A stretch of 64,000 nucleotides of DNA, from contig OMWC01000002.1 of the NCBI GenBank assembly GCA_900314655.1, positions 1-64,000 on the forward strand, in the 5' to 3' direction. Origin of the DNA: an uncultured Prevotellaceae bacterium. Its GTDB lineage: Bacteria; Bacteroidota; Bacteroidia; Bacteroidales; Bacteroidaceae. Made by a program: the position numbers and the translations under genes. Below, in pieces: positions 11,042-61,554 of the stretch (position 1 is the stretch's first letter; the number at the start of each line of letters is the position of its first letter). The notes under the pieces were generated by a model, which searched no databases, had not been told where the DNA came from, and saw only the letters and a program-made list of their open reading frames with translations.

Positions 11042-11142
11042 GGATGATACTTTGGCCTTCAACGGATGATACTTTGAAGTCCGTCGGATGATACTTTGGA
11101 AGGCAACGGATGATACTTTGAAGGCCCTCGGATGATACTTTG
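11042..11142 (+). repeat. Array A of 22-bp units (five copies)
   Basis: Five copies of the 13-base core GGATGATACTTTG start at 11042, 11064, 11086, 11108 and 11130, exactly 22 bases apart. The nine bases between cores vary but follow patterns such as AAGGCCNTC or GCCTTCAAC. The array lies between the convergent genes nqrF and prs. Related arrays occur at 35621, 50416 and 61454, all on the same strand. Confidence 0.9.
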
Positions 11143-35602: not shown

Positions 35603-35620
35603 GTTTGAAGTGAATCCAGC

Positions 35621-35721
35621 GGATGATACTTTGCCTTCCAACGGATGATACTTTGACCTTCAACGGATGATACTTTGAAGGCCGTCGGATGATACTTTGA
35701 AGGCCGTCGGATGATACTTTG
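35621..35721 (+). repeat. Array C of 22-bp units (five copies)
   Basis: Cores GGATGATACTTTG start at 35621, 35643, 35665, 35687 and 35709, exactly 22 bases apart. The third and fourth units are identical. The array begins 18 bases after the ATPase stop and runs into palindrome copy 3. Confidence 0.9.
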
Positions 35722-35737
35722 ACAGACGCTGAATGAA

Positions 35738-35843: not shown

Positions 35844-35976
35844 GGGTGACGGGTGACGGGGTGACGCCTACTTTCTATAACATTTATTTATTTACACGCG
35901 CGTGAGAACAATTAGAGTAATATTCTATATTTTATAAAAGTTATGAAAAGTAGGCGTCACCCGTCACCCGTCACCC
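35844..35976. repeat. 30-bp inverted repeat with AT-rich centre
   Basis: Left arm 35844-35874 (GGGTGACGGGTGACGG...) and right arm 35947-35976 are complementary over 30 bases with one extra G on the left. Each arm contains tandem GGGTGAC words. The 72-base centre is AT-rich with a central ACGCGCGT. The right arm ends three bases before the stop of the VirE gene. Confidence 0.8.
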
Positions 35977-35978
35977 TT

Positions 35979-37370
35979 TTATTCCCTTTTTTTACTTTCC
36001 ATTTCTTCATAGGATAGTTCCTTCACATAGTATCTTTTGCCGTGTTTTGTGTGCTTTGACGTGAATCCCAACCGTTTCATAGCCATGCCGATTTTGGTGG
36101 GCGAGAGACTTTCACGCAGACCGGAGTTGATCTTGAGGAGGATTTCGGTGGTGGTGAGATAGATGCCCTGCTCGCCGGGCTTGGGCACGGCAAAGTAGTG
36201 CTGGATGAGCTCCAGCTCCTTGTCGGTGTCCTCGAAGTTGCGGTTGCGCTCGTTGAGGTTGTTGGTCTCCTGGCGGGTGAGGTAGTGGCGGAAGTTGACG
36301 TCCATGGAGAGGTTGTAGGCCTGGTAGAAGAGGGCCTCGTGGCGGTAGTCGAAGCGGTTGGGGTCGTCGATGCTCTCCACGACGAAGGGTAGCCATCGGC
36401 GCGAGCCGGTGGGGTCGTTGAGGAAGTGCTCGTTGTTGCCCGTGGCACAGAAGGAGCAGATGCGGCGGCGCACCTCGAAGTGGCGGGCGTAGGCGGGTCG
36501 GTCCTGCACGGTTTCGAGCGTGATCATGGCCTTGAGCTGGTTTTGCTCCTTGCGCGAGAGGGAGTCGATCTCTTCGAGGCAGATGAGCCAGTTGCAGGTC
36601 ATCTGCAGGCGGTCGTCCTTGTTGATGACGGTGTTGTCGGTCTTCACGTAGAAGTAGCGCCTGAGCTCCGGGGGCAGGAGGTTGCGGAAGAAGGTGCTTT
36701 TGTAGGCTCCCTGCTCGCCGATGAGCGTGAGCACGGTCTGGTTGGTGACTCCCCTCATGAGGATGCCCCTGACCATGCCTACGAGCCAGCGGCGGAAGCA
36801 TTCGGTCCATTCCTGCTGGGCTTCCTGCTGGGTCTGCCCGCCGGTGGGACGGATGTGCACGTGGTCGGCCACGTCCTTGATGTAGTCGTGGTCGGTGTCG
36901 AAGAAGTAGGCCAGGCTGTTATGGTCGAGCCAGTCGCAGATGGGGTCGGTGAGATGCGTGAAGTGGCTGTTGATGATAGCCTCGATGTCCTTGATGTTGC
37001 AGCGGTAGTAGTGGGAGCAGCACTGGTAGAGCGTGTTCACCTCGCGGTCGTTGAGGTCGTGCCATTCATTGCCGTACTCGCCGTCGCCGTCGGTGACGAT
37101 CGTGCTCTGTGAGAAGGGGTCGAGGCTGTCGCCGAGCCAGCGCACTTCGGGCTTCATGGTGATGCCGTTGAGCCTGCTCACGATCATCATCGAGAGGGCC
37201 TGGCGCAGCTGCTCCATCGTGGCCAGGGGCAGCTTGTCGGTGTCGGTCTGCTCCTTCTTCTTCTTTCTGCCTTTCCTGCCCTTGCCGTTGCGCTTGGGCT
37301 CTTCGTCGGTTTTGTGTTCATCGTTGTCGTGCTCGTTCGTTTCGAAATCTTTGTAGTCATCTGATACCAT
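35979..37370 (-). CDS. VirE/VapE family P-loop protein
   Basis: Protein of 463 residues with the virulence-associated E (VapE/VirE) helicase-like domain seen in phage and mobile-element genes. Order: a charged, low-complexity N-terminus (about 1-45, Lys/Glu-rich); an unclassified region to about 215; then the ATPase core with Walker A GEQGAYKSTF (Tyr in place of the usual Gly before Lys, as in many Bacteroidales members), Walker B WLICLEEID, and FCATGNNEHFLNDPTGSRRW. The N-terminal primase-like VirE_N domain found in many Bacteroides proteins is not visible. Part of a module with DUF4248, amidase and HU-like genes. Confidence 0.85.
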   Translation of the reverse strand: MVSDDYKDFETNEHDNDEHKTDEEPKRNGKGRKGRKKKKEQTDTDKLPLATMEQLRQALSMMIVSRLNGITMKPEVRWLGDSLDPFSQSTIVTDGDGEYGNEWHDLNDREVNTLYQCCSHYYRCNIKDIEAIINSHFTHLTDPICDWLDHNSLAYFFDTDHDYIKDVADHVHIRPTGGQTQQEAQQEWTECFRRWLVGMVRGILMRGVTNQTVLTLIGEQGAYKSTFFRNLLPPELRRYFYVKTDNTVINKDDRLQMTCNWLICLEEIDSLSRKEQNQLKAMITLETVQDRPAYARHFEVRRRICSFCATGNNEHFLNDPTGSRRWLPFVVESIDDPNRFDYRHEALFYQAYNLSMDVNFRHYLTRQETNNLNERNRNFEDTDKELELIQHYFAVPKPGEQGIYLTTTEILLKINSGLRESLSPTKIGMAMKRLGFTSKHTKHGKRYYVKELSYEEMESKKRE

Positions 37371-37521
37371 AATTGTTGATTCTTTAAGAGGTGATACTTA
37401 TGTTTTTTACAGAAAATGAAGTGGCGGCGAAACTGTCTCCAACATGTGTGAGATAATTCCGCCGCCAGGGTCCGGTAGTTTTTGCCGGTTGGTGTAGCCT
37501 TGAAGGGCTTAGGGGATGTCC

Positions 37522-37653
37522 TCACGATGAAGGCTCGTGCTCCGAGTTGAGAGCCGATACTGAGCGTGATGCCGGGGCATAGTTAGCCGCCTTGGCTTCC
37601 GCCTGTGCCTTTATCGCTAGGGAGTTACGGTACATTTGGGTTCCTTCCTTCAT
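37522..37653 (-). CDS. Possible 43-residue protein upstream of the VirE gene
   Basis: A minus-strand frame starting MKEGTQMYRNSLAIKAQAEA lies 11 bases after a TAACTTTG promoter box (37665-37672, minus strand) and ends 151 bases before the VirE start. The composition is plausible for a real small protein (Ala/Ser-rich, charged), but no family is recognised. The promoter probably drives the VirE gene too. Confidence 0.35.
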   Translation of the reverse strand: MKEGTQMYRNSLAIKAQAEAKAANYAPASRSVSALNSEHEPSS

Positions 37654-37664
37654 TAATCGTAGTG

Positions 37665-37672
37665 CAAAGTTA
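37665..37672 (-). promoter_or_regulatory. -7 promoter box before the small ORF and VirE gene
   Basis: The minus strand reads TAACTTTG, matching TAnnTTTG. Confidence 0.5.
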
Positions 37673-37730
37673 CTGCTTTTTCTGTTTTCGTGCAATAGAT
37701 TCACATAAATTAACGGTAGATTTTATTTGG

Positions 37731-38047
37731 GAGTCGCCTGCGGCGAGAAATGGGTTTAGGAGTCGCCTTCGGCGAGAAATCTTACAAATTAAGTACAAAT
37801 AAATAGATTTGTTTTGATTGTAGTCGCCTGCGGCGAGAAATCTTACAAATAAGTACAAATTGATTAATATATTTTGTTATGATTTGTGTGATTTCTGCCC
37901 GTAGGGCACTCTATCATGGTTCGCCCAGGGCTTCCACGATGGCGCGCTATTTTGTAGTCGCCTGCGGCGAGAAATCTTACAAATAAGTACAAATTGATTA
38001 ATATATTTTGTTATGATTTGTGTGATTTCTGCCCGAAGGGCACTCTA
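37731..38047. repeat. REP-like repeats with a tandem 128-bp duplication
   Basis: Short hairpin words GTCGCCTGCGGCGAGAAAT (at about 37733, 37753, 37821, 37955) and, in opposite orientation, ATTTCTGCCCGTAGGGCAC (near 37889 and 38024) bracket AT-rich spacers. A 128-bp segment at 37820-37947 is repeated at 37954-38081 with two differences; the second copy includes the 3' end of the DUF4248 gene, so the first contains a relic of that 3' end. Bases 37371-37521 hold nothing else recognisable. Confidence 0.85.
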
Positions 38048-38266
38048 TCATGGTTCGCCGAGGGCTTCCACGATGGCGCGCACTTGGGCGGGGGTGAAGA
38101 TACGGGCCTTGGGACGGTAGCCCAGGGCGATGAGACGCTGGCGCAGACCCGGGTAGCGGTCTATCCAGTGGTTGAGCTTCTTGCGCGCCGTGCTGTCGGC
38201 AGAAGCGGGGCTGTATTGGGCGGCCAGTTCGGCTATGCCGTAGGCCTTGATCTTGAATGTTTCCAT
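38048..38266 (-). CDS. DUF4248 family protein
   Basis: Small protein of 72 residues, starting METFKIKAYGIAELAAQYSP, recognised as DUF4248. Function is unknown; the composition suggests a helix-turn-helix-like DNA-binding protein (helices around 8-20, 26-45, 55-68). In Bacteroidales it is usually found near VirE, HU-like and amidase genes, as here. A TAAATTTG box lies four bases before the ATG, so the transcript may be leaderless. Partial copies of its 3' end lie in the flanking repeats. Confidence 0.8.
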   Translation of the reverse strand: METFKIKAYGIAELAAQYSPASADSTARKKLNHWIDRYPGLRQRLIALGYRPKARIFTPAQVRAIVEALGEP

Positions 38267-38270
38267 ACTG

Positions 38271-38278
38271 CAAATTTA
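38271..38278 (-). promoter_or_regulatory. -7 promoter box of the DUF4248 gene
   Basis: The minus strand reads TAAATTTG, ending four bases before the ATG. Confidence 0.5.
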
Positions 38279-38386
38279 CGAAATAATCTGCTCATTTCCA
38301 AATGTTTAGGCACGAATTATTGCGCTTTATCGCTCGCTTTCGAACCCTCGAAGGACGGTATGTGAAAACGGGCCTCGCCGATGTTG

Positions 38387-38394
38387 TATCTTTG
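38387..38394 (+). promoter_or_regulatory. -7 promoter box of the amidase transcript
   Basis: TATCTTTG, ending four bases before the ATG of the candidate leader ORF (38399) and 114 bases before the amidase ATG. Confidence 0.6.
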
Positions 38395-38398
38395 CAGT

Positions 38399-38512
38399 AT
38401 GAAATCAATATTAATAATGGAACACAAAGACACAAAGAGACAAAGGGCTGCGCAAAGGGGAAAACTTTGTGATTTAGTGTCTTTGTGTTCAGTTAAACAA
38501 AAGAAAGTATGA
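38399..38512 (+). CDS. Candidate 37-residue leader ORF overlapping the amidase
   Basis: A frame starting MKSILIMEHKDTKRQRAAQR spans the whole leader and its TGA overlaps the amidase ATG (ATGA). It begins four bases after the promoter box. The leader DNA also forms a 14-bp perfect hairpin (38420-38433 with 38477-38490, GAACACAAAGACAC). Translation of this frame would open or couple to the amidase start. The peptide is strongly basic; no homologue is known to me. Confidence 0.45.
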   Translation: MKSILIMEHKDTKRQRAAQRGKLCDLVSLCSVKQKKV

Positions 38513-38916
38513 GAACCATCACTCTGATTATCATTCACTGCTCGGCCACGCCTGAGGGCAAGAGCCTGAGCTTCGAGGCCTGCAAGCGCGACCACATGGA
38601 GAACCGGCACTTCCGTGACATCGGCTACCATTACTACATCACGCGCGACGGACATATCCATGCCGGACGACCGGAAGAGCAGACGGGCGCCCACTGCAAG
38701 AACCACAACAGCCACTCGATTGGCATCTGCTACGAAGGCGGACTCGACCGCCAGGGCCGACCGGCCGACACGCGCACCAAGGCGCAGAAGGAGGCGCTGC
38801 TGGATCTGCTCTTCTCGCTCCGGCTGGATTATCCGCAGGCCATCGTCGTGGGTCATCACGACCTGGATCCGCGCAAGCCCTGTCCGTGCTTCGATGCAGC
38901 GAAAGAGTATAAGTAG
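38509..38916 (+). CDS. N-acetylmuramoyl-L-alanine amidase (Amidase_2)
   Basis: Peptidoglycan amidase of 135 residues, type T7 lysozyme/PGRP, cutting the bond between muramic acid and L-alanine with a zinc ion. Zinc and catalytic residues are visible in LIIIHCSAT, IGYHYYI and VVGHHDLDPRKPCPCFD. There is no signal peptide, as in phage lysins. The stop codon TAG is supplied by the first bases of a REP-like repeat (TAGTCGCCTGCGG). Part of the VirE/DUF4248/HU module; such amidases recur in this setting across Bacteroidales, possibly remnants of a phage-like element. Confidence 0.9.
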   Translation: MRTITLIIIHCSATPEGKSLSFEACKRDHMENRHFRDIGYHYYITRDGHIHAGRPEEQTGAHCKNHNSHSIGICYEGGLDRQGRPADTRTKAQKEALLDLLFSLRLDYPQAIVVGHHDLDPRKPCPCFDAAKEYK

Positions 38917-39165
38917 TCGCCTGCGGCGAGAAATGGGTTTAGGAGTCGCCTTCGGCGAGAAATCTTTCAAATATGTACAAATCAATAAAAAAGATTTTGA
39001 TTTGATTTGTGTGATTTCTGCCCGTAGGGCACTCCTCATGGTTCGCCCAGGGCTTCCACGATGGCGCGCTATTTTGGAGTCGCCTTCGGCGAGAAATCTT
39101 TCAAATTAAGTACAAATAAATAGATTTTGTTATGATTTGTATGATTTCTGCCCGTAGGGCACTCA
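38914..39165. repeat. REP-like repeats downstream of the amidase
   Basis: Further copies of the GTCGCCT(G/T)CGGCGAGAAAT word (about 38915, 38945, 39078) and the opposite ATTTCTGCCCGTAGGGCAC word (about 39012, 39144), including a second relic of the DUF4248 3' end (about 39037-39070). The first 45 bases repeat the sequence at 37731-37785, so the DUF4248-amidase block is flanked by direct repeats. Bases 39166-39210 are an AT-rich leader. Confidence 0.85.
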
Positions 39166-39210
39166 TATAACCAATCAATTATTCATTTATTAATTAACAT
39201 TTAATCAATT

Positions 39211-39675
39211 ATGGCACTTTACAGTTTGTATCAGAACAAGAATGAGAAAATGACGGGAAGCTTCCAGAAATGGTACGCCCGTCCAGTAGTAACCGACACG
39301 AAGTCGCTCACCGACGTTGCCCTGGAGATCCAGGAGAACACCACGGCCAAGGAGGCTGACGCCTACGCCGTGCTGAAGGAGATGAAGAACGTGCTCATCA
39401 AGTGGCTCAAGCAGGGCTATCGCATCAAGATTGAGGGGCTGGGCAGCTTCAAGCTGGGCCTGCGCTCGAAGGGTGCTGACTCGGTGGAGAAGTTCAGCGT
39501 GGCTGAGAACATCAAGTCCACGCGCGTGATCTTCACTCCTGAGGTGGAAGTGGATGCCGTGACTGGCAAGCGCTTCAAGCCCCTGATCCGCAGCGTGCGC
39601 TGGAGCAACGTGGAAAGCCTTGCCAACAAGGATGCCGTGAACGCGAAGAAGGATGATGAGACCCCTGAACCCTAA
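39211..39675 (+). CDS. HU-like DNA-binding protein
   Basis: DNABII-type protein of 154 residues, the Bacteroidales 'histone-like, HU-related' form. The HU-like core spans about 10-120: an N-terminal helical part, a beta-arm region with IKIEGLGSFKLGL, and an arm-like stretch RVIFTPEVEVDAVTGKRF. The C-terminus is charged and extended. It likely bends or coats DNA. It is followed 17 bases later by the smalltalk peptide gene, a standing pair in this order of bacteria. Confidence 0.88.
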   Translation: MALYSLYQNKNEKMTGSFQKWYARPVVTDTKSLTDVALEIQENTTAKEADAYAVLKEMKNVLIKWLKQGYRIKIEGLGSFKLGLRSKGADSVEKFSVAENIKSTRVIFTPEVEVDAVTGKRFKPLIRSVRWSNVESLANKDAVNAKKDDETPEP

Positions 39676-39692
39676 TCGTGAAGCGTGAAGCT

Positions 39693-39788
39693 ATGGACAA
39701 GAAAGAAATCATCAAGTATGTCATCCAGCTGCTCATCGCCATCCTGACGGCCATCGGCACTACGCTCGGCGTGAGCTCGTGTATCTAA
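39693..39788 (+). CDS. Smalltalk-type small protein
   Basis: Very short gene: 31 residues, MDKKEIIKYVIQLLIAILTA followed by IGTTLGVSSCI. It matches the 'smalltalk' small-protein family of Bacteroidetes, which has a charged start, one hydrophobic helix and a C-terminal GV(S/T)SC. The end resembles a lipobox placed at the C-terminus. Function is unknown. It lies directly after the HU-like gene and is followed by a hairpin at 39826-39860. Confidence 0.8.
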   Translation: MDKKEIIKYVIQLLIAILTAIGTTLGVSSCI

Positions 39789-50390: not shown

Positions 50391-50516
50391 AAAGTATCAT
50401 CCGTTGCCTTCCAGCGGATGATACTTTGCTTTTCAACGGATGATACTTTGACCTCCAACGGATGATACTTTGAAGGCCATCGGATGATACTTTGGAAGGC
50501 AACGGATGATACTTTA
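50391..50516 (+). repeat. Array D of 22-bp units (five copies plus one inverted partial copy)
   Basis: Cores GGATGATACTTTG start at 50416, 50438, 50460, 50482 and 50504, 22 bases apart; the last reads CTTTA instead of CTTTG. A partial inverted copy (AAAGTATCATCC) opens the array at 50391. It lies between the convergent genes queC and the TonB receptor. The altered base in the last copy creates the receptor stop codon. Confidence 0.9.
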
Positions 50517-57260: not shown

Positions 57261-59423
57261 ATGAAAACAAGTAAATGCCTTATTGTCGTGGCCATGTTCG
57301 CCTGGAGCATGATGGCCGCAGCCCAATGGCCCAGAGGCCTGCAGGGTCCCCTGGAGAAGGGCGCTTTTGAGACTGGTCAGTATCGTAACCTTTTCGTTGA
57401 GATGGGCTACAGGCCCAACGAGGTGGAGCAGAAGTTGAAAGAAGTGTTCAACGATGTGTTCCACGGTCCCAACAAGGTGTATTTCGAAGTTGGCGACACC
57501 ATGGGTTACGTCAGCGACATCAAGAACCACGATGTGCGCACGGAAGGTATGTCGTATGGCATGATGATTGCCGTAGAGATGGGCGAAAAAGATATCTTCG
57601 ACCGTCTGTGGCGCTGGGCTAAGAAATACATGCAGCATCAGGAAGGACCGCGTGAGGGATATTTCGCCTGGAGCTGCAAGACCGACGGCACCCGCAACGC
57701 CCAAGGCGCAGCCTCCGATGGTGAACTGTATTTCATCACCGCGCTGATCTTCGCCTCCAACCAGTGGGGTAATGACACCGGTATCAACTACAAGGCCGAG
57801 GCACAACACATCCTAAATTGCATTCAACCCAGAGAATATAAACCTGAACCTCGTCCCGCAGGCTTTGGCGGCTTTGGTGGCCAGCAGCCCTCAACTGCCA
57901 AGATGTATCTGATAGACCCCGAGACGAAGCTCATCACCTTTACGCCCGATGGTTTCGGTCAGCGCTTCACCGACCCCAGCTACCACATTCCTGCTTTCTA
58001 TGAGGTATGGGCGAAATGGGCTGACGATGGTCGCAGCGACTACTGGATGGAATGCGCCCGGAAAAGCCGTGAGCTGCTTCACAAGTGTACGCATGAGCAG
58101 ACAGGCCTGAACGGCGACCAGTGCCAGTTTGACGGTTCTGAGATGCAGATGCCTCGCTTCCCTGGTATGCCGCAGCGTCCAGAAGGAGCACCGCGTAGGA
58201 ATGGCAACAATAATTTCCGCTACGATTCATGGCGCGTGCCCATGAACATTGCCCTCGACTATGAATGGAGCTGCGCTGATGCTGAATGGCAGCGTGCCTA
58301 TGGCGAGCGCATTCAGAACTTCCTCTACTCGCAGGGTATAGATACCTTCGTAGATCAATACCGCGTGGATGGCTCACTTCCTGAAGGAAACGAGATTCTG
58401 CAGGCAGGCGGGTTCCGCAAGCTGCGCCACAGCATCGGACTTGTGGCTACGTCGGCAGCCGCATCCGTGATGTGCAGCCACGACAAGCGCCGCGAATTCA
58501 TCAAAGCCCTTTGGGAAGCCAAGCACGAACCCTTCGAAGACGGATACTTCGATGCCTACTACGACGGACTGCTTCGCCTTTTCGCCTTCATGCATCTGAG
58601 TGGCCACTATCGCGTCATCTTCCCTCCATCAGAGCGCCAATTCAAAGTGGGGCATCTCTCGGCAACCGTCGATACCGGTGCCGGTGGAAAGATTCTCTCG
58701 CTCTGCTACGACGGCAAGGAAGTGCTGTCGCAATCCAGCATGCCCGAATCCTTTGGAAGCACGTTCTGGACCAGTCCGCAGAATGAATGGAACTGGCCAC
58801 CCGTGCCAGAGTTTGACAAGTATCGCTACCGTATCGATCAAGACGGTGACACGCTCACTATCACCAGCAGCGAGTCGAAACGTCTGGGTATGCGTGTGAG
58901 CAAACGCTTCCATACCGACAAGCGCAGCCAGTCGCTCACGGTGGATTATTCCGTTATCAATACCGGCAAACAATCCCGCAAAGTGGCCCCTTGGGAGATT
59001 ACACGTGTGCCCAATGATGGCTGGATTTTTTTCGATTCATCCGTCGCTGACATCACTCCCGCAGGACTGATGCCGTTCACTGCTTCCGAAGGTGCCGCAT
59101 GGTATAAGACCGACACGGCCAACGAGAACCGTAAGATCAATGCCGACGGCAAAGGTTGGCTGGCCTATCTTAACAACGGGCTGCTCCTGGTGAAGCAGTT
59201 TGAGGATCTTTCAGTCGATGCTCCGGCACCTGGAGAGGCTGAGATACAGGTCTATGTGAACCGTGGCAAGACTTATATAGAGCTCGAAAGCCAAGGTGCT
59301 TATGTGACCTTGGCTCCCGGTGAACGTCTTACGTGGAGCGTCAGATGGCATCTTCAACCCTATAGCGGTGAAGCCCCGTCAAAGAAAGTTTTGAAAGCTG
59401 TGAAGAAATTGCTGAAGCGTTAA
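57261..59423 (+). CDS. GH8 exo-oligoxylanase-like enzyme fused to a DUF4380-like domain
   Basis: Secreted enzyme of 720 residues. After a signal peptide (about 1-21) comes a GH8 domain (about 25-450) like reducing-end xylose-releasing exo-oligoxylanase. Likely catalytic residues are Glu95 (RTEGMSYGM), Asp153 (AASDGELYF) and Asp322 (RYDSWRVPM); the first two have the 58-residue spacing known in the Bacillus enzyme. Two Gly/Pro-rich insertions (about 190-212 and 298-320) are unusual. The C-terminal part (about 480-700) is beta-rich and resembles DUF4380. The ATG at 57261 is chosen because the longer frame runs through the two tRNAs. It faces the GH10 gene; both degrade xylan. Confidence 0.85.
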   Translation: MKTSKCLIVVAMFAWSMMAAAQWPRGLQGPLEKGAFETGQYRNLFVEMGYRPNEVEQKLKEVFNDVFHGPNKVYFEVGDTMGYVSDIKNHDVRTEGMSYGMMIAVEMGEKDIFDRLWRWAKKYMQHQEGPREGYFAWSCKTDGTRNAQGAASDGELYFITALIFASNQWGNDTGINYKAEAQHILNCIQPREYKPEPRPAGFGGFGGQQPSTAKMYLIDPETKLITFTPDGFGQRFTDPSYHIPAFYEVWAKWADDGRSDYWMECARKSRELLHKCTHEQTGLNGDQCQFDGSEMQMPRFPGMPQRPEGAPRRNGNNNFRYDSWRVPMNIALDYEWSCADAEWQRAYGERIQNFLYSQGIDTFVDQYRVDGSLPEGNEILQAGGFRKLRHSIGLVATSAAASVMCSHDKRREFIKALWEAKHEPFEDGYFDAYYDGLLRLFAFMHLSGHYRVIFPPSERQFKVGHLSATVDTGAGGKILSLCYDGKEVLSQSSMPESFGSTFWTSPQNEWNWPPVPEFDKYRYRIDQDGDTLTITSSESKRLGMRVSKRFHTDKRSQSLTVDYSVINTGKQSRKVAPWEITRVPNDGWIFFDSSVADITPAGLMPFTASEGAAWYKTDTANENRKINADGKGWLAYLNNGLLLVKQFEDLSVDAPAPGEAEIQVYVNRGKTYIELESQGAYVTLAPGERLTWSVRWHLQPYSGEAPSKKVLKAVKKLLKR

Positions 59424-61453: not shown

Positions 61454-61554
61454 GGATGATACTTAGGCCTTCAACGGATGATACTTTGAAGCCCGTCGGA
61501 TGATACTTTGAAGGTCAACGGATGATACTTTGAAGACCGTCGGATGATACTTTG
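61454..61554 (+). repeat. Array E of 22-bp units (five copies)
   Basis: Cores GGATGATACTTTG start at 61454 (written CTTAG at its end), 61476, 61498, 61520 and 61542, 22 bases apart. It lies between the 3' end of the peptidase gene and the promoter of the GH10 gene. Confidence 0.9.

Follow-up and report, generated by a model that had tools for sequence, protein, structure and literature searches.

A REPIN/BIME-like hairpin repeat on both sides of a DUF4248 and amidase gene pair in an uncultured Prevotellaceae bacterium

Introduction

Two arrays of short hairpins flank a DUF4248 gene and an amidase gene in an uncultured Prevotellaceae bacterium, and each array holds a relic of the DUF4248 3' end, which raises the question of whether the gene or the repeat multiplied at this locus. 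An earlier note on this DNA took the arrays as a sign that the DUF4248 gene had been duplicated and lost repeatedly, and suggested a link to a REP-associated transposase. We addressed this question in the stretch that contains the locus (contig OMWC01000002.1, positions 1 to 64,000; 64,000 nucleotides, hereafter the window), in the rest of the genome, and in other genomes that carry the motif.

Results

Anatomy of the two arrays

The window holds 11 hairpins in two arrays (37731-38045, n = 6, and 38914-39164, n = 5) that flank the DUF4248 and amidase genes (Table 1). Each hairpin consists of AG, a 5-bp stem, a 3-nt loop, the second half of the stem and GAAAT, the stem being TCGCC/GGCGA in copies on the + strand and TGCCC/GGGCA in copies on the - strand. 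The + copies, GTCGCCTNCGGCGAGAAAT (at the first positions of H1, H2, H3, H5, H7, H8 and H10), and their diverged partner on the - strand, GAGTGCCCTNCGGGCAGAAAT (at those of H4, H6, H9 and H11), pair around AT-rich spacers to form modules of about 90 nt (a, b, c and d), and + and - hairpins alternate along both arrays. The short hairpin in two versions of opposite orientation, with AT-rich spacers, that the earlier note had described was thus present in full, as were the tandem duplication of a unit containing the DUF4248 3' end (37818-37947 and 37952-38081, 130 nt at 98% identity, with two differences and a period of 134 nt), the further relic beyond the amidase, and a shared array start that forms direct repeats around the gene pair (37732-37789 and 38915-38972, 58 nt at 98%), including an identical leader hairpin. 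In an alignment of 56 nt, the truncated module behind H2 shared 92.9% identity with module d. Each of the four array boundaries is a hairpin end, the right end of array 2 has no gene tail, and H7, with which array 2 opens, supplies the TAG stop codon of the amidase gene.

A member of a second repeat family precedes the amidase gene (38405-38505) and is an inverted CACAAAGACACAAAG element roughly 80 bp long. More than 20 further matches to it occur genome-wide, and G398, which at 84-88% nucleotide identity was the closest genome found, has conserved it at the corresponding position.

Table 1. Features of the hairpin arrays and the genes between them (window coordinates).
Feature	Position	Strand	Composition	Remarks
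H1, TCGCC-type hairpin, array 1 start	37731..37751	+		29-nt leader common to H7
H2 + truncated module	37760..37820	+	spacer kept, right hairpin deleted	cut at ..GATTG right before H3
Module a	37821..37911		H3 37821-37841 +, AT-rich spacer, H4 37891-37911 -	98.9% identical to module b
Relic 1, DUF4248 3' end	37914..37947	-	34 nt	joined to TATTTTG + next hairpin; identical to relic 2
Module b	37955..38045		H5 37955-37975 +, spacer, H6 38025-38045 -	
DUF4248 gene, intact, single copy at locus	38048..38266	-	72 aa	PF14053, E 2.9e-23; G398 orthologue
N-acetylmuramoyl-L-alanine amidase gene	38509..38916	+		PF01510, E 3.1e-20
H7, array 2 start	38914..38934	+		direct repeat of H1
Module c	38943..39034		H8 38943-38963 +, spacer, H9 39014-39034 -	
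Relic 2, DUF4248 3' end	39036..39069	-		same TATTTTG junction as relic 1
Module d, array 2 end	39077..39164		H10 39077-39097 +, spacer, H11 39144-39164 -	

Origin of the DUF4248 relics

The relics, one between modules a and b and the other between c and d, derive from the 3' end of the DUF4248 gene (38048-38081) and hold just its last 34 nt, which adjoin a hairpin. The gene-end relics seen in each array, the 58-bp direct repeats around the block and the presence of four DUF4248 genes in the genome would fit a tandem duplication of the DUF4248-amidase block whose later copies decayed to 3' ends and direct repeats. We consider this account highly improbable, however, as the relics never exceed 34 nt next to a hairpin and always have the same junction, array 2 starts and stops at hairpin termini instead of gene ends, and the further DUF4248 genes compared, both here and in G398, have 42-52% amino acid identity and are thus distant paralogues.

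The orthologous VapE-DUF4248-amidase-HU genes of G398 lie in the same order, with one DUF4248 gene at the locus and neither array. There, the spacer reads ..TTAACTGAAGGGCG followed by the DUF4248 stop codon, and the amidase ends in EYLKN*, as opposed to EYK* in the window. Both relics contain CCCAGGG, as does the DUF4248 gene of G398, and the window gene now reads CCGAGGG, so that the relics predate this substitution. The array-free G398 locus, the hairpin-bounded arrays and the missing gene tail are together consistent with a hairpin-bounded unit that moved and was amplified locally in tandem, and not with duplication and decay of the gene. The amidase-HU spacer of G398 contains a lone TCGCCTCCGGCGA hairpin, so that the ancestral site 2 may already have been occupied. 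It is the repeat that was amplified, taking the gene's tail along, and the duplication and loss of the DUF4248 gene that the earlier note had proposed is not supported.

At C21 (L040 8537-9733), a further module separates an HU gene from a second DUF4248 gene. A general association of the module with DUF4248 was rejected as chance, since it was seen at 2 of the 6 sites in this genome (the window and C21) and at 0 carrier loci in other genomes, the latter figure resting on the window's own DUF4248 protein as query.

The VapE-DUF4248-amidase-HU block corresponds to 35872-39788 in the window and to L268 9481-12971 in G398, where it is shifted onward by about 20 kb, to a point past the counterpart of window position 59417; this offset indicates that the whole 3.9-kb block changed place between the species. 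Another dispersed repeat is represented by four window stretches of about 80-100 bp each (11042-11142, 35619-35722, 50414-50510 and 61454-61554), all of which match L268 9351-9445, beside the VapE block.

A pair of unequal hairpins

Across the loci, the unit is an inverted pair, 85-130 bp in length, of two different hairpins (TCGCC..GGCGA and a variable stem), each followed by GAAATC and CAAATC repeats of about 10 bp, around an AT-rich spacer. In a test anchored on the left hairpin and the conserved GATTTCT, in which pairing was not required, the right hairpin had a perfect stem of at least 5 bp at the exact spot in 67 of 73 cases, against 0.4% of shuffles. These right stems were of at least ten types (TGCCC, TGCGC, TGTCAC, TGCCCC, TACCCC, TGTCC, TGCAC, TGTCCC, TGCCAC and TGCCTC) and never TCGCC, indicating that pairing is kept while the sequence changes. 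The two hairpins were unequal in every module (79/79); as most carrier loci were chosen by their TCGCC hairpin, the constancy of the left arm is not to be read from this set, but a TCGCC/TCGCC pair would have shown in it. One module of G388 has TCGCC on neither side, and its hairpins are still unequal. Predicted single-strand folds (z about -4 to -7.5) took the form of one long stem or a four-way "clover". A multi-copy, intergenic, inverted pair of short hairpins around a spacer that itself pairs is the anatomy of a REPIN, and we regard the pair as a REPIN/BIME-like element.

An insert of about 35 nt, GCTTTCCCT..TTCGCGAACAGTGACCGTTGGTT, recurs in the right arm, always at GATTT^CTG, and forms a second, nested hairpin; it is present in many modules of loci L126, L130, L134, L138, L149, L150 and L170.

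A location in gene spacers at the sites read, together with a conserved fold, could also mark a structured RNA (a terminator or a stabiliser of mRNA 3' ends) that is selected in place and is not mobile. This appears quite unlikely to us, however, because a scan for intrinsic terminators found none at the hairpins, which have no T-tract, a search of Rfam gave no family (the best scores being far under the gathering scores), and the element is patchily distributed, with different sites occupied in related species. The REPIN/BIME-like element may have effects on neighbouring mRNA or DNA.

Dispersal within and between genomes

Pattern searches of the whole genome with a degenerate motif (up to 3 mismatches) returned 24 matches, a number far above chance, as the reversed control gave 1. 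The motif was found in six places in the 3.5-Mb genome (the window contig, C50, and C9, C44, C15, C24 and C21), which excludes a confinement to this site, the outcome that the earlier note had said would refute its reading. The other five places hold bipartite elements within gene spacers, and the BIME-like inverted pairs of that note accordingly extend genome-wide, with two hairpin types and an intergenic position at the sites read.

Among relatives, the motif was patchy (12 of 149 carried it), with multiple copies in G006, G041, G063, G070 and G085 and at least 10 copies in some relatives. A search of 84,980 species genomes gave at least 119 stretches with the motif, and among the matches listed almost all were rumen Prevotellaceae/Bacteroidales MAGs. 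No match was found when viral contigs were searched for the motif, or when the window stretch was compared with plasmids. The C9 copy is common to three species, where it lacks outer repeats. Clean empty sites were ruled out at C15 and C44, as relatives carry other intergenic sequence there and the copies are thus not clean insertions.

Several contigs of G041 end inside or beside a module (L088-L091, L105, L107), as expected of a multi-copy MITE with high identity. In G070 (L078-L083), long mosaics of several different palindromes were seen, each palindrome being followed by GAAATC or GAAATT with matching CAAAATC or CAAAATT repeats, such that the tail base changes in step with the repeats.

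Relation to RAYT transposases

A REPIN is a doublet of REP sequences that forms a hairpin (Bertels and Rainey 2011, PMC3116915), and REPINs show compensatory changes in the hairpin spacer, tandem clusters that include flanking sequence, and a clover fold (PMC3116915). Our element shares the inverted doublet, the compensatory change, the clusters with flanking sequence and the clover fold, and the genome has three matches to Y1_Tnp, one of them below the family cut-off, all of which would suit a classical system whose hairpins are mobilised by a resident RAYT (TnpA_REP). We nevertheless judge such a system very unlikely here. The motif was absent within about 1.5 kb of the Y1_Tnp loci, and the three resident matches adjoin other palindromes. 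No convincing RAYT was found in 214 module loci (there was one weak, distant match); Y1_Tnp was present in 6 of 10 carriers versus 16 of 29 non-carriers, and the carriers G398 and G063 (99% complete), and G388, had none. Adjacency and co-occurrence were therefore both negative, the transposase link put forward in the earlier note was not borne out, and no transposase was found to be tied to the element.

At the left ends, only AG, which the search pattern itself specified, was constant; GTAG occurred in 10 of 144, compared with TTAG in 41, GGAG in 29 and TGAG in 27. The element thus resembles a REPIN in anatomy, yet it lacks two features that define membership of this class, a cognate RAYT flanked by the repeat and a conserved GTAG/CGTC tag at the foot.

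The Y1_Tnp genes at L042 400-1700 and L043 9150-9860 are flanked by palindromes of their own (CTCACAGGGGG..CCCCCTGTGAG and GCCGAATTTGCAATTCGGC), and these are likely true RAYT/REP pairs.

Modules carried within MITEs

In relatives, modules were often nested between the outer terminal repeats of MITEs, of which at least two kinds are well supported. Of 134 modules, 33 lie in type-a MITEs, which have GTAACTATTCAGC..GCTGAATAGTTAC ends, and around 20 of these 33 show exact direct repeats of 8 bp. A further 6 lie in type-b MITEs, which have CTCAACTTTCG..CGAAACTTGA ends, most with repeats of 8-10 bp; C24 of this genome is an intact type-b MITE flanked by ATAAATAA. Another 5 of the 134 have ends of two further types, where duplications are not clear, and 72, including those of the window, show none of the four outer repeats. 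Outer terminal inverted repeats combined with target-site duplication, the mark of a MITE, thus characterise C24 and about a third of the copies in relatives; the window arrays have no known outer terminal repeat, and the stand-alone copies, the window's included, have no convincing outer repeat or target duplication. Within each MITE family the position of the module is fixed, so that each family probably acquired it a single time, with later copies arising as the MITE itself multiplied.

IS66 elements are characterised by GTAA.. ends and 8-bp direct repeats (PMC11946415). Type-a carriers in relatives likewise begin GTAAC and have exact 8-bp duplications, in contrast to the window copies, which have no such ends. 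A search of four genomes around the few ends that matched revealed no autonomous IS66 partner.

As an identical core occurs in several MITE types and this genome holds an intact type-b MITE, all stand-alone copies, those of the window among them, might be MITEs stripped of their outer repeats, with the hairpin pair as decayed interior. We find this doubtful, given that 72 of 134 modules have none of the four outer repeats, that stand-alone copies end sharply at AG..CT, and that the C9 copy has no outer repeats in any of its three species. A more speculative proposal, which we regard as rather unlikely, is that the asymmetric pair is a portable four-way-junction part, in DNA or RNA, with one fixed and one co-varying arm, which at least two and possibly four unrelated MITE families of rumen Prevotellaceae would have acquired in independent events, and which would also spread alone, without a RAYT.

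Discussion

The reading that we favour, and consider probable, is that of a non-autonomous, non-coding REPIN/BIME-like element that was amplified locally together with the DUF4248 tail and serves as the core of MITEs elsewhere in the Prevotellaceae. In this lineage, one element would have settled directly behind the DUF4248 stop codon and been amplified in tandem with the adjoining last 34 bp of the gene, probably to three units, one of which may later have been shortened. A hairpin-bounded stretch of two units would next have given rise to a copy 1.1 kb away, at the 3' end of the amidase gene and with unchanged orientation, and a TAG of this copy would have become the amidase stop codon. The array copies would afterwards have diverged by 5-13%, and gene conversion between them may also have played a part. 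Elsewhere in the Prevotellaceae, the element would travel as a MITE core, mobilised in trans by transposases with specificity for the outer terminal repeats, and transposition may be the cause of its dispersal.

BIMEs are mosaics of the Y and Z REP sequences of E. coli, in which two distinct hairpin motifs, inverted with respect to each other, alternate in arrays. The arrays described here share this alternation of two distinct inverted motifs, but their stems are shorter (5 bp), unrelated in sequence and without a GTAG-type end. With REPINs, the element has in common an inverted doublet of about 100 bp, an AT spacer, long-hairpin and clover folds, compensatory changes, and tandem clusters that take in flanking sequence; unlike REPINs, it has neither a linked RAYT nor a REP tag, its hairpins are always unequal, and the unit is also found inside MITEs. 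REPs with the GTAG/CGTC tag are short intergenic palindromes, some with 5-bp stems (PMC3733652), and are similar in both respects to our hairpins, in which, however, the tag tetranucleotide is not conserved.

The small mobile hairpin repeats described here form a family that is widespread in rumen Prevotellaceae, and literature searches on such repeats in Prevotella or Bacteroidales gave no description of it. Its REPIN appearance without the defining transposase and tag tests the reach of the REPIN model, and the free variation of the second hairpin, which remains paired without ever matching the first, makes a role of the clover fold directly testable. The DUF4248 tails at this locus show, in addition, that false "gene relics", which mimic gene duplication, can be a by-product of such a repeat.
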